From Kalmusia sp. IMI 367209 (Eukaryota > Ascomycota > Dothideomycetes > Pleosporales > Didymosphaeriaceae), in contig JAPEUQ010000001.1 in the NCBI GenBank assembly GCA_027946365.1, forward strand, positions 1,550,001 through 1,614,000: 64,000 nucleotides of DNA. The letters are read 5' to 3'. Below are positions 6,121 through 11,089 of this stretch, piece after piece. The position numbers and the translations under genes are program-made. Position 1 is the first letter of the stretch. Each line of letters begins with the position of its first letter. A model generated the notes under the pieces. That model saw only the letters and a program-made list of their open reading frames with translations. It was not told the origin of the DNA and searched no databases.

Positions 6121-8018
6121 TTAGACAACATCAGAAACTTCCTTTTCCATATTTACAACTCCACCCTTAGTCTCTCTGTCATCTCCTTCAATGACAGAAG
6201 GGCCTGTCTCCCCGATTTGCGGAGGGTACACTGCCTCTTCGATAATAGACTCAGTAGGCGTCGAGATGTAAGTGCAAATGACATAGTGCACCAACATTGA
6301 CACATGGAAGCCGAACAGCCATGCGAAGCTATACACCTTCCATGCACCCCCGACATTGAGACTAGGCTTAATGCTCTTCGCGAACCCTGGCAGGAGCGGT
6401 GTGAACCCAATGACGAATGACGCATACGCACGCCAGTTCCATCCGCCATTGTACCAGTATATTCCATTACTCACGTAGAGTTGATCGACATTAAGCTTAC
6501 GCTTCTTGATGAGGTAGTAATCGCAAACCATAGTACCAGCGAGCGGCCCCATCAAGCAAGAGTATCCGGATAAGAAGGCGAGAAGGCCGGTAGCATTTTT
6601 AATAATGTTCCAGGGAGTGGAAGCGATGCAAAAGACGCTGATGAAAACTGTGGCGCGGGAAATATTGATATACTTAGGCGCCATTCCTGTTACGTCATTT
6701 GAGAAGGGGTAAGTTCCTGCTGCGATCTGGTTGCCGATCGTTGCAAGGATGAAACTGGCCGAGACAAAGAATTTGGCTGCACGAGAATCAAATCGTGCGA
6801 TAACGGCAGGCATGTACCTACACAGAAAGTGTTAGAAAATAGGAAGAAGGTTGACAGTGCTGTACTCACCACTGAAAATCGTTCCACAAGTACGAATGAG
6901 CTGACGTCACAAAGATGGGTGTCAAGGCTCCTAAGGTACCGATGATAGGTAAGGCCAGGAATTGATGTCCACCACTAAGTCTGTTCTTCGAAAAACGCCC
7001 GAAATCAGGCATGTTTACAGCGAGTGAACTGAAAAGTCCAATGATGACATTCAGCCCAGTCAACGCGGAGTACGCAGTGTTCATATAAGTCGAAGTCAGC
7101 TTGTATTGCCCTGTCACAAGTTTACCACCTCTAGAAATATATTATTAGCAAGCATACATTTTCATGGGTATTCAGGCTTACCCTTTAGTCACGATGGAAG
7201 CCCATAGAAAAAGGGCTAGAAAGGTCGGTGGGACGACGACGCCTTTAACCCAGAACAAAACTCTGAGTTTAGATATCGGCATAAGCGCCAACCCGGTTTG
7301 GAGAAACCAGTACAGAAAGATGCAAAGTAGCTCAGCAGCTAATTCATATTAGCAAAAAAAACTTATTAAAATGGACTACAATAAATGGAACCGACTGACA
7401 GGTGACACCTGCACCTAGAGGTATATGGTTTGGAAAATGAATAAAGCTTGGCCAGATAGCCTCGAGACACCGCTGCAGAAAATTTCCTGCTTGAACCGTG
7501 AGAATAGCTGTCCACATGAGCGCGACAAAGGCTACTATTGTTAACAAGAAACGCCCACAGCAGTCCCATATATTACTTGCCTCTGATGCAAATGGCGGGG
7601 AAGGATCCGTACATGCCGAAGATACTTCTGATGATGACCGGGAAAGGCACGTTGTATGTAGCGCCCATCTTTCCAGTCAAGGTAATGACGACGCTGCAAA
7701 TAGCGAAACCAAAAAAGACGATCGGAATGGCCTCTCTCGCGGTGAATCCAAGCGACATTACGCTAGAGACTGTAGCTGCTAGAGGAGGAGCAAGCATATC
7801 AGAACACCAGTAGGCCCAGTAGTCAATACCGCCCCAGGTTCGCTCCTCCGGTGGAATGGGATCAAGATCTGCAGGATGTCACCACTCTTTAGACAATGTT
7901 ACGTCTTCATACGATGTTGGCACCTACCTTTATTCGACCATCGAGAGCCATATTTTCCACTTTCAAAGGGCACTCTGAGACGGAAGTGTGGAGCAAGCCT
8001 AGATCTGAGGAAAGACAT
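6121..8018 (-). CDS. NCS1-family permease (uracil/allantoin/uridine-type)
   Basis: Plasma-membrane nucleobase-cation-symport-1 transporter of about 12 membrane segments, 539 residues. Exons: 7928..8018, 7581..7868, 7409..7534, 7182..7338, 6870..7130, 6121..6817. All join in phase, and introns are 46-70 nt. The second intron (7535..7580) has a GC donor (GCAAGT). Family landmarks in order: WSNKDLDPIPPEERTWG before segment 1, WCSDMLAPPLAA, GATYNVPFPVIIRSIFGMYG (segment 3), AIWPSFIHFPNHIPLGA, NMPDFGRFSKN, FSNDVTGMAPKYINISR, and GYSCLMGPLAGTMVCDYYLIKKRK. The C-tail is acidic with several lysines. It is divergent from the isochorismatase-amidase fusion and shares its promoter, which suggests it imports that enzyme's substrate (inference). 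NCS1 members carry uracil, uridine, allantoin, purines or thiamine, so the exact cargo is unknown. Confidence 0.9.
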
Positions 8019-8863
8019 GATATTGAGGCGAAAAGTTCGTCGAGTGAGACGAAATCAGACAAGGCTTGTGAAGGCAATCCCGCGAAGTATTCATCTTGCA
8101 TATGCTCTTACATATACCCCCACAGATAGCCAGGCTAAGATGCCGCACACCTTAGTGATCAGATATCGAACGCCACCAAGATTCTCACATGCCTGTGGTA
8201 TGCATAGTATCGGTTTTCGACGTTCCAGTCAGCCATAGGGCTGCACCCAACTACTTTCCTGTGCGAGCGAGTGGGGTGTCTTTGAACGAGGGCCTATCAC
8301 GCCGTGATGGCGTCTACGATAATGCATCCTAGTTGCTTCTTCTTGCACATGCTCAAAGATGTACGATAAGGGCTTCTTTTATGCGCATCTCATTGTGTGG
8401 AAATTAGTAGCCCACTGAAGACTAAAGGTACTGTTCTACTTTGATTTCAGTCGCTTTGATTATTATCAGAACTTATGGAAAGTGTACAAAGTTGGACTGT
8501 AGAGCAGGCTGAGCTGTTTCTTATGAATCTTCGGAAGGGGTATGACAGGGTGTAGGTGAATGAAAGGCTCAGGCGGGGGTTGATGATAGCACTAATGCAC
8601 CCCGCGCCCCACCCTTCTTAATAGGCTGAACATCTCCTGCAGACGCCCATGGCGTGCGCCTATCATTCAGATAGGGCGAGTACATCACAGTGTTACTATC
8701 ATTTTTTCGCTCATCGTGTGCTAGAGTGTAGGCTTGCTTTCGGCTGAAACTCTTTCGTCCCATTCTCGTTCCTAAGCTTCCCTTCAAATACTGTTACTTC
8801 TGAATCAGTAATCCTCACCTAGGTAACCACTTTCGGACAACATTTTCGATATAGCTCTTCATA
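8019..8863. promoter_or_regulatory. Divergent promoter with nine GATA-factor motifs
   Basis: The 845 bases between the divergent starts of the NCS1 permease and the isochorismatase-amidase fusion. HGATAR motifs occur on the plus strand at 8124, 8317, 8364, 8584 and 8669, and on the minus strand at 8294, 8463, 8660 and 8696. With even base use about 2.5 would be expected. HGATAR is the binding site of the fungal nitrogen regulators AreA/NIT2 and of related GATA factors. Three motifs lie within 42 bases (8660-8701). I infer nitrogen-catabolite control of both genes. Confidence 0.6.
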
Positions 8864-11089
8864 ATGAATGCCTCCAAAGAAAGGATACTGGTCGCCAACG
8901 CAGAACCGTATTCGTTCTCTTTCCCTCTTCAACACACTGCCCTCATGATCATCGATATGCAGCGCGACTTCCTCCTCCAAAAGGGCTTTGGAGAGATTCA
9001 AGGAGGTGATTTAGAAGCAGTTCAAGCCGCAATCGCTCCTACGAGAAAGTTACTCGAAGCATGTAGAGGCGCGGGCATGACAATCGTGCACACACGTGAG
9101 GGACATGTTCCTGATCTGGCGGATTGCCCTTCGTCGAAGCTAGTGAGACAAGCCGCCGCCCCACACAACACCCAGCACAAGCTAGTAATCGGAGAGAAGG
9201 GTGAACTGGGTCGGTTACTTGTACGTGGCGAGCACGGCCATGACATCGTTGATGAGCTGAAACCTCTCCCTGGCGAAATAATCATCGATAAGCCTGGCAA
9301 AGGCTCCTTCTGGAACACAAATCTTCTGCATAAGCTTAAAGCGCGGGCAATCACACATCTTATTGTGGCTGGCGTCACGACGGAGTGCTGTTTTGCTACT
9401 ACGATTCGGGAGGCCAATGATAGAGGATTCGAATGCTGTAAGTCCTCTGAAGATCCTCGAAGCTTCTCATGAGGCTGCTAACTCAACCTAGGTGGCATAG
9501 AAGAGGCGACTAGCGGCTATAATGATGCATGCTTTAAAAGATGCACTCTTGACATGATCCATTGGTCTCAAGGTCTCTTCGGATTCATCGCCCACTTGCA
9601 GCCATTCTTAGACGTTCTTCAGCCTCTGGCTACCGAGACGGAACTATCAGAACCATTGGCAGTATTGAAAGGTCAACTCACCATTTCAGTCCTACAGAGA
9701 GCCTACAGAGATGGTTTGTCGCCGGTCACTGTCGTCGAGACAATCTATGACCGGATCGAAGCATACCAGCTAATTGATCCCGCTGTATGGATTCACATCG
9801 AGCCAAGAGGGGTCGTTTTACATGCGGCAAAGACTCTTATGGCCAGGTACCCAGACAGAAATGCCCTTCCGCCACTATTTGGTATTCCGTTCTCGGTAAA
9901 AGACAGTATCGATGTTACCGGTCTTCCGACTACAACCGCTTGCCCTCCTCTAGCTCATATGCCAGCGGTGTCCGCGGTAGTATACGAGAAAGTCGTCTCG
10001 GAAGGCGCTCTGTTCATCGGAAAAACGAACCTTGACCAGCTAGCCACAGGCCTCACGGGGTGCCGTAGTCCTTACGGTATTCCTCACTCTGTCTTCCACA
10101 AAGACTACATAAGCGGTGGCTCGAGCAGTGGAAGTGCGGTATCAGTCGGAGCAAATCTCGTGTCCTTCTCTCTCGCTACCGATACAGCAGGCTCAGGTCG
10201 TGTTCCTCCTGGGTACAACGGCGTTGTAGGGTATAAACCCACAAGAGGGACGCTATCATTTCGAGGTGTTACACCGGCATGTCTCTCCTTGGATTGTATA
10301 GCTCTAATCACACATACCGTCGCTGATTCACGCGCGCTGTGGCAACTCCTAGAGGCTTACGACCCGCTGGATCCGTACGCCAAACCGGCCATTGCATTTG
10401 AGCGCCACATCAACAGCATCGGCCCTCAATCCAAGGTATTCAGATTCGGCATACCACCTCCAGAAGCATTAACAATCTGCTCAGCGCCGGCCCGTCGAAT
10501 GTTTGACGAGGCGGTCACGAGGATGAGGACCATCGGCGGTGTCCTAACACCTATCGATTGGACGCCTTTCCAAAAAGCGGGTCGTTTACTGTACGACGGT
10601 ACTTTTGTCTCAGAGCGACTCGCATCACTGCCAGATGATTTCCTCGAGAAGAATCAATCAACACTTCATCCCGTCATCTTAGAGCTCATGAACGCAGTAG
10701 TTGCACGGCAGAGCACCGCCACACAAGCGTATCGCGATCTTCAGGCCAAGGTACTATACACGCGGCAAGTCGAGCAGGTATTCGCGTACTCGGCTTCTGG
10801 TGTTGATGTGGTTATTGTCCCTACGGCGCCCACGCATTGGACGATCGAAGAAGTGCTTGCAGACCCAATCAAGAAGAACAGCCATTTGGGTGAGTTTACG
10901 CACAGCGGCAATGTACTAGATTTGTGCGCTATTTCTGTGCCGGCTGGAACGTACCCCATTTCTGAGCTTAGTGGTAGTCATGAAGAAAGTGTGTTACCAT
11001 TTAGTGTGACCTTCCTGAGTAAGTCGAGGCTTGATGCGGAAATGTTGGAGCTAGCGAAGAGGTTTGAAGATAGTATGAAAGCGGAATGA
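8864..11089 (+). CDS. Fused isochorismatase (biuret hydrolase-like) and amidase (allophanate hydrolase-like)
   Basis: One 723-residue protein: exon 1 8864..9437, exon 2 9492..11089; the 54-nt intron (GTAAGT...CCTAG, branch CTAAC) joins ...GFEC to CGIEEATSGY in phase. Residues about 20-240 are an isochorismatase-like cysteine hydrolase closest by eye to bacterial biuret hydrolase: IIDMQRDF with Asp31, HTREGHVPDLADCP, IIIDKPGKGSFW with Lys143, GVTTECCFATTIREANDRG with Cys176 as likely nucleophile. Residues about 250-720 are an amidase-signature domain resembling AtzF/DUR1,2 allophanate hydrolase: DPAVWIH, FGIPFSVKDSID (Lys328), GKTNLDQLATGL, SGGSSSGSA (cis-Ser near 403), ATDTAGSGRVPPG (Ser426) and VGYKPTRG. 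Expected steps: biuret to allophanate plus ammonia, then hydrolysis of allophanate. The extra C-terminal domain of full-length allophanate hydrolases is absent. Substrate assignment is inference; a related ureido compound is possible. Confidence 0.85.

Follow-up and report, generated by a model that had tools for sequence, protein, structure and literature searches.

In bacteria, the route from triuret to ammonia runs through triuret hydrolase (TrtA), biuret hydrolase (BiuH), and the allophanate hydrolase (AH) AtzF, sometimes with TrtB, and biuret hydrolase and AH are usually separate proteins. Here we describe a gene of the fungus Kalmusia sp. IMI 367209 (Dothideomycetes, Pleosporales) whose predicted product joins an isochorismatase-like domain, nearer to TrtA than to BiuH, with an AH-type amidase domain. 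The gene lies in a window of 64,000 nucleotides (the whole stretch of DNA that was analyzed), which corresponds to contig positions 1550001-1614000 of a 42.8-Mb genome. We propose, with moderate confidence and from sequence comparison, that the product is a bifunctional ureide hydrolase that would yield NH3 and CO2 via allophanate, with biuret as its leading, unproven substrate.

Robinson reportedly described biuret hydrolase homologues in some fungi in 2018, so the domain itself would not be new to fungi in print. TrtA genes have been reported from some fungi, with no fusion mentioned in the available portions of that article (PMC7948467; articles with PMC numbers are cited throughout from the portions of their text that were available), and the corresponding portions of PMC2409186 and PMC7700744 likewise mention no such fusion. 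Yeast DUR1,2 also joins AH to an allophanate-making enzyme (PMC3073912); as regards membership in DUR1,2, urea-carboxylase domains were found neither in the fusion protein nor in the Kalmusia genome. No paper describing the fusion was found in the literature searched, key subscription papers lying outside its coverage, and as far as searched the fusion is new as an architecture, built from known kinds.

Gene structure and distribution among fungi

Once the intron is removed, the two exons (Table 1) translate as a single frame of 723 codons and a stop (2172 nt), exactly as the initial annotation had read it, and the product is identical to P0001 (N0V90_000507, Kalmusia sp. IMI 367209, 723 aa; 100% identity over 100% of the spliced protein). 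P0001 is presumably a gene model of the same genome and so not independent RNA proof of splicing. If the intron is retained, an in-frame TGA is encountered. The intron nevertheless has support from outside the source genome's own gene model, in the pattern of homology among relatives of the N-terminal domain. When this domain was searched alone, homology to the spliced protein reached only as far as residue 192 in 79 and residue 194 in 11 of the 120 relatives listed (120 of 7990), and both domains were shown by 4 of these 120. Residue 192 corresponds to the intron donor because the GT of the intron still completes the Cys192 codon; the relatives that end there are, we infer, mostly unspliced calls on raw DNA.

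Pfam places Isochorismatase at residues 25 to 205 (124 bits; cut-off, 27) and Amidase at residues 272 to 708 (238 bits; cut-off, 27) of the one protein, and catalytic residues are kept in both, in agreement with the initial annotation of two intact catalytic domains in one polypeptide. That annotation had also proposed looking up the domain architecture of relatives, and both Pfam domains, read by eye, were present in 120 of 120 relatives listed (best 120 of 3571). It is hardly credible that two separate genes were read as one, since the domain border lies inside a single stop-free frame (9482-11089), the intron sits inside the first domain, and the same architecture recurs in all of these relatives; with homology ending at the donor, we dropped this explanation. 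By these comparisons the gene is a real, conserved fusion, predicted to encode one polypeptide with two domains.

With a basidiomycete member as the query, both domains were found in the best 120 of 7262 relatives, ten of which were new. Named sources include Dothideomycetes, Eurotiomycetes (e.g., Exophiala), Lecanoromycetes, Sordariomycetes, Geoglossum, Orbilia, and two Boletales (Hygrophoropsis and Leucogyrophana), where the class names, except those for Kalmusia, Hygrophoropsis, and Orbilia, are the ones that we take to apply. Judged from these homologues, the two-domain fusion is a widespread fungal architecture. It is not peculiar to Kalmusia, and a one-species oddity is ruled out by both domains in listed relatives from many fungi.

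Among the named rows listed, P0114 (Hygrophoropsis aurantiaca) and P0241 (Leucogyrophana mollusca) are the only basidiomycete fusions recognized. Their nearest ascomycete relative among the matches listed is P0090 of Geoglossum simile (67%), with which P0114 groups in both trees (90/80 and 99/99); transfer of the fusion gene from an ascomycete to the Boletales is possible. P0120 (Neofusicoccum ribis) is a diverged fusion, with Ala48, Val79, Asp217, and Gly218. In the N-domain tree it branches apart from the remaining 15 fungal rows, and it may possibly act on a different substrate.

The fusion was also found in Parastagonospora nodorum (P0023) and Bipolaris maydis (P0071), which we take to be the same species as Stagonospora nodorum and Cochliobolus heterostrophus, respectively. 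Strope et al. (2011) described a Dothideomycete amidase that forms a cluster separate from DUR1,2, with one such amidase each in S. nodorum and C. heterostrophus; it is called stand-alone, and the word isochorismatase does not occur in the available main text (PMC3073912). This amidase is very likely the AH half of the fungal fusion.

C-terminal amidase domain

Sequence comparison identifies the C-terminal half as an AH amidase domain that retains its catalytic residues, and the initial assignment of this half to AH stands. The amidase-signature residues Lys328, Ser402, and Ser426, whose roles were assigned by alignment to AtzF in what we take to be its residue numbering, are kept in 120 of 120 fusions. 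Tyr559 (119 of 120) and Arg567 (120 of 120) were mapped on the 4gyr alignment to Tyr299 and Arg307 of Granulibacter, presumably the AH-specific pair, on which, and on whose role, no paper was found. The domain shares the catalytic set and the AH Tyr/Arg pair with AtzF, Granulibacter AH (4GYR and 4GYS), and K. lactis AH (4ISS), and its identity in fold alignments is 39% to AtzF (4CP8) and 42% to Granulibacter AH (4GYS).

Unlike those AHs, the fusion lacks the AH C-terminal domain and has the isochorismatase-like domain at its N terminus. The NCBIfam AH models scored below their cut-offs (TIGR02713, 426 bits with a cut-off of 511; NF006043, 454.9 bits with a cut-off of 487). The AH C-terminal domain was not found, the AH profiles being matched only to 412/563 and 449/600; their ends are unmatched because this domain is absent. 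No further Pfam family was found in the second exon at E values up to 1. An archaeal AtzF with a truncated C terminus has been reported (PMC12625717). The amidase half is AH-like and not AtzE-like (455 versus 135 bits). The amidase tree left the fungal placement open; of its seven outgroup rows, two landed inside the tree and were not trusted.

N-terminal isochorismatase-like domain

The catalytic triad Asp31, Lys143, and Cys176 stands exactly where the initial annotation had put it and is kept in every ungapped row of the 120 fusions. Among solved chains the domain is closest to TrtA (207.6 bits), followed by RhdBiuH (183.6), RlvBiuH (173.1), and RutB (85.5). It shares 49% identity over 207 residues with TrtA of Herbaspirillum sp. 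BH-1 (PDB 6XIX, 6XJ4, and 6XJE; PMC7948467) and, with superfamily and triad in common, 44% and 47% with BiuH (NF050097; PDB 6AZO and 6XJM). The fungal domain differs from TrtA in being eukaryotic and joined to AH. In the structure model of the full protein the N-domain is only partly confident, and the fold search used the full-length protein, the rows shown being amidase matches.

The TrtA positions discussed in PMC7948467 are Asp24, Phe29, Phe35, Asn41, Glu72, Lys129, Lys132, Ala134, Val157, Glu160, Cys162, Tyr187, Gln202, and Ile205. Aligned to the first thirteen, Kalmusia has D31, F36, F42, G48, E79, K143, K146, S148, V171, E174, C176, Y201, and S217; the column nearest Ile205, which is approximate, holds Leu in 120 of 120 fusions. 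Besides the triad, the substrate contacts Glu72 and Lys132 of TrtA are kept. At TrtA positions 35, 41, 157, 160, and 187, the residues are Tyr, Tyr, Ile, Asp, and Thr in both BiuHs and Phe, Gly, Val, Glu, and Tyr in Kalmusia, which therefore shares the TrtA residue at four positions that separate TrtA from both BiuHs (F42, V171, E174, and Y201). These residues (TrtA Phe35, Val157, Glu160, and Tyr187) are kept in 120, 119, 119, and 119 of the 120 fusions, respectively, the exceptions being a gap or, at Tyr187, Phe. Position 148, at TrtA Ala134, is Ser in 86 fusions, as in BiuH 6AZO, Ala in 28, as in RhdBiuH, Thr in 5, and a gap in 1. By consensus this position is a conserved Ala in TrtA and Ser in BiuH, and A134S is tolerated in TrtA (PMC7948467).

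The pocket departs from TrtA at Asn41 and Gln202, both of which are absent in 120 of 120 fusions. At position 48, 113 fusions have Gly, 4 Ala, 2 Ser, 1 Asp, and none Asn; position 217 is Ser in 119 and Asp in 1, neither the TrtA nor the BiuH residue. Ten further fusions likewise have Gly48 and Ser217. Asn41 of TrtA hydrogen-bonds Gln202, which contacts the substrate from the other subunit, and N41Y and Q202E leave <10% of the triuret activity (PMC7948467). Since the two residues are hydrogen-bonded in TrtA and both are replaced in the fusions, the change affects a linked pair as a whole. Gln218, present in 107 of 120 fusions, may or may not substitute for the displaced binding Gln.

In an N-domain tree of 68 rows (from 16 of the 120 fusions and 18 of the 80 bacterial loci treated below, plus additionally fetched rows), the 16 fungal rows group together (100/100) inside the TrtA clade (98/97), beside actinobacterial proteins (95/89). 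Between nesting of the fungi in TrtA and a position sister to TrtA, neither placement was favored (p 0.394). Tree and residues suggest a domain nearer to TrtA than to BiuH, although an alternative tree joining the fungi to BiuH was not rejected (approximately unbiased [AU] test, p 0.091).

Proposed function

In the reading that we favor, the N-domain, through Asp31, Lys143, and Cys176, would take a terminal amide off a small ureide, most likely converting biuret to NH3 and allophanate. The amidase domain, through Lys328, Ser402, and Ser426, would hydrolyze allophanate before its decarboxylation to urea, with Tyr559 and Arg567 serving the allophanate carboxylate, and the remaining product would fall apart to NH3 and CO2 with no need for the AH C-terminal domain. 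The N-domain would stem from a triuret-hydrolase-like ancestor with an altered pocket (Asn41 and Gln202 lost), a change that plausibly moved it toward biuret or a biuret/triuret mix. The logic of consecutive steps in the initial annotation is supported. Its proposal that one enzyme takes biuret to NH3 and CO2 survives as the best guess by pathway logic and finds no backing in the residues.

The pathway logic comes from six-frame searches of the Kalmusia genome, which match exon by exon and may under-score intron-bearing genes. Urease is present. The urea carboxylase markers PF02626 and PF02682 had no match in this genome, control models matching in 6 of 14. AtzD/TrzD was not found there either (a first control was silent, and in a later scan the model matched 3 of 16 genomes, Kalmusia not among them); cyanuric acid was discarded as an upstream source, and biuret would therefore come from outside or by another route. 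Over the same genome the BiuH model scored 209 bits on exon 1 of the fusion and 64 bits on the next gene, the fusion as query gave 28.8 bits for the next isochorismatase-like match, and no other close match representing a separate BiuH/TrtA-like gene was found. Since no other allophanate source appeared in these searches, the AH half, if working, would get its allophanate from the N-domain. As far as the searches show, the N-domain is the only evident allophanate source, and this is the main argument for its cutting biuret or a derivative.

Several observations weigh against the favored reading. The BiuH equivalog NF050097 (NCBIfam) gave 223.3 bits for the whole protein and 227.2 for the domain alone, with a cut-off of 370; this score and the pocket residues rule out canonical BiuH membership, and the initial label of biuret hydrolase proper had to be given up for a domain with TrtA as its nearest solved chain and TrtA residues at the four distinguishing positions. 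The substrate-binding Gln of BiuH and TrtA is absent from its aligned place. Bacterial and archaeal genomes were also scanned, the best 80 of 225 relatives being kept as loci; the queries that picked them were the complete fusion and a pair of TrtA-like peptide patterns, so that adjacency and the TrtA signature are over-represented. In this biased sample, 78 of 83 isochorismatase-like rows beside AH match TrtA at all 14 positions, which speaks for triuret and not biuret. Finally, urea carboxylase is present in other Dothideomycetes (PMC3073912, Table 2), and AH could be fed by it there.

A domain that is still a triuret hydrolase would turn triuret into carboxybiuret, which either the fused amidase would attack directly or decarboxylation would convert to biuret that is used elsewhere or excreted. 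The placement in the TrtA clade, the TrtA residues at F42, V171, E174, and Y201, and the signature of the bacterial AH neighbors would all suit this, uric acid oxidation is a possible origin of triuret, and some fungi are reported to have TrtA genes (PMC7948467). We nevertheless regard it as doubtful: Asn41 and Gln202, key to TrtA activity, are replaced throughout the fusions, a separate BiuH to use the biuret was not found in the Kalmusia genome, and the amidase half is like AH, not AtzE.

Possible, if rather doubtful, is a retooled triuret hydrolase that became a generalist for triuret and biuret after the loss of Asn41 and Gln202, with the whole route in one polypeptide.

It is unlikely that the N-domain uses a different ureide (formylurea, guanylurea, ureidoacrylate, or an N-substituted biuret) and that the fusion belongs to purine/pyrimidine breakdown. 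The unusual pocket residues G48 and S217 would be explained, as would an adjacent NCS1 permease gene, whose Pfam family covers cytosine, purines, uracil, thiamine, and allantoin; formylurea is the second-best TrtA substrate (PMC7948467, Table 2), and biuH with a cytosine permease gene has been noted in archaea (PMC12625717). Among such substrates, however, only a biuret-type compound would give AH its allophanate, and the RutB (ureidoacrylate hydrolase) model TIGR03614 scored 98 bits, far under its cut-off of 378.

It is quite improbable that the AH half mainly serves urea carboxylase, as a split DUR1,2 with the N-domain as a side activity or scaffold. Amidase and urea carboxylase do occur together in many Dothideomycetes, but their genes are not near each other, and Mycosphaerella graminicola possesses the amidase but no urea carboxylase (Strope et al., PMC3073912; Table 2 therein). 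Moreover, no urea-carboxylase domain was matched in the Kalmusia genome, and the N-domain triad is kept in every ungapped row.

Genomic neighborhood

The divergently transcribed NCS1 permease gene (Table 1) encodes a protein with a weak PDB match to the hydantoin permease Mhp1 (41 bits). In the favored reading this permease would supply the ureide, and both genes would be under nitrogen (GATA-factor) control. The motif HGATAR was chosen for fungal nitrogen regulators such as AreA. The nine copies in the upstream region that the two genes share are the window maximum per 844 bp (mean, 2.16); 0.4% of 844-bp stretches reach this number, those sampled all overlapping this region, which also holds the sole four-in-120-bp cluster of the window. 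The window as a whole is not enriched (165 versus 153 expected), and the counts represent motif occurrence, not binding evidence.

A long open frame at L003:973-3360 (Kalmusia C28, near 1957979-1958755) combines isochorismatase and 2OG-Fe(II) oxygenase domains and is possibly two genes in one frame.

Table 1. Features of the fusion gene and its surroundings, in window coordinates
Feature	Position	Strand	Description and basis
NCS1 permease gene, divergent	6121..8018	-	Six-exon model, 526 aa; second intron borders uncertain; PF02133, 234 bits
Common divergent upstream region	8019..8863		9 HGATAR (GATA-factor-type) motifs, four within 8584-8701
Exon 1	8864..9437	+	ATG at 8864; start codon to codon 192 base 1; most of isochorismatase-like domain; identical to P0001
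Isochorismatase-like (TrtA-branch) domain, residues 11-234	8894..9619, intron included	+	Pfam, solved-chain match, alignment, tree
Catalytic Asp31	8954..8956	+	Alignment
Gly48, at TrtA Asn41 place (Tyr in BiuH)	9005..9007	+	Alignment; TrtA numbering from PMC7948467
Catalytic Lys143	9290..9292	+	Alignment
Catalytic Cys176	9389..9391	+	Alignment
Intron	9438..9491	+	Phase 1, 54 nt; GTAAGT donor, CTAAC branch-like site, AG acceptor (CTAG)
Exon 2	9492..11089	+	Isochorismatase-like domain end, linker, AH amidase domain, stop codon ending at 11089
Ser217-Gln218, at and after TrtA Gln202/BiuH Gln215 place	9566..9571	+	Alignment; PMC7948467
AH-type amidase domain, residues 253-719	9674..11074	+	Pfam, NCBIfam, alignment, fold alignment
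Lys328	9899..9901	+	Alignment
Ser402	10121..10123	+	Alignment
Ser426	10193..10195	+	Alignment
Tyr559	10592..10594	+	Alignment
Arg567	10616..10618	+	Alignment

Bacterial counterparts

All 80 loci carry AH-like and isochorismatase-like frames on the same strand, with AH first in 77 and second in 3 (L030, L036, and L082) and a gap between the best matches of the pair of 21 to 1185 nt (median, about 114). The AH match of L082 is partial (82 bits), and L036, L081, and L082 contain more than one strong isochorismatase-like gene. BiuH was counted in the genomes of 40 of the 80 loci; a BiuH above the cut-off was found in 7 and not in 33, in assemblies that may be incomplete. No assay of an AH and TrtA-like pair without BiuH was found in the literature examined. 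Triuret/biuret genes have been reported in nitrifiers (PMC12625717).

In 75 of 80 loci, a membrane protein of ~530 residues follows the matches of the pair by 12 to 183 nt on the same strand. The loci that lack it are L030, L036, L082, L086, and L091, of which L091 lies at the end of a contig. Three examples examined (L032:8544-10190, L046:8026-9627, and L039:8155-9750) have 10 to 12 predicted helices. No family match was found for the three in Pfam, for two of them in NCBIfam, or for one in PHROGs, and the structure model was too poor for use (pLDDT, 51). The protein is perhaps an undescribed ureide permease. The NCS1 permease of the window, used as a query, found no relatives in the 80 loci.

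A bacterial fusion as direct ancestor was rejected, no row spanning both domains among 274 genomes of one class (that of G005), of which 31 matched at 1e-40, with scoring limited to the best candidates. L097:5902-8040, from a Mycobacterium metagenome-assembled genome (MAG), is a single 713-aa frame in which AH precedes the TrtA-like domain, the sole such case among the 80 loci and possibly a reversed-order fusion or a frame error. L030 (a Cyanobacteria MAG by its title) has the isochorismatase-like frame before AH, the fungal order, with ~130 nt between the frames; its pocket differs, with Trp and Phe at positions 35 and 41, and the bin has five BiuH-model matches in all.

Implications

If the N-domain is a generalist, one polypeptide would run the route from triuret through (carboxy)biuret and allophanate to ammonia, and the "stand-alone amidase" known from Dothideomycetes would turn out to be one half of the fused enzyme. 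Biuret and triuret are fertilizer impurities and may also be formed when uric acid is oxidized. If the proposed function is right, a large group of fungi would mine nitrogen from them with one protein, by a route credited mainly to bacteria, and the reading of the fungal amidase described in 2011 would change. The fusions would also represent a natural experiment on substrate choice in the TrtA/BiuH family, in which the residue pair regarded as responsible has changed together.
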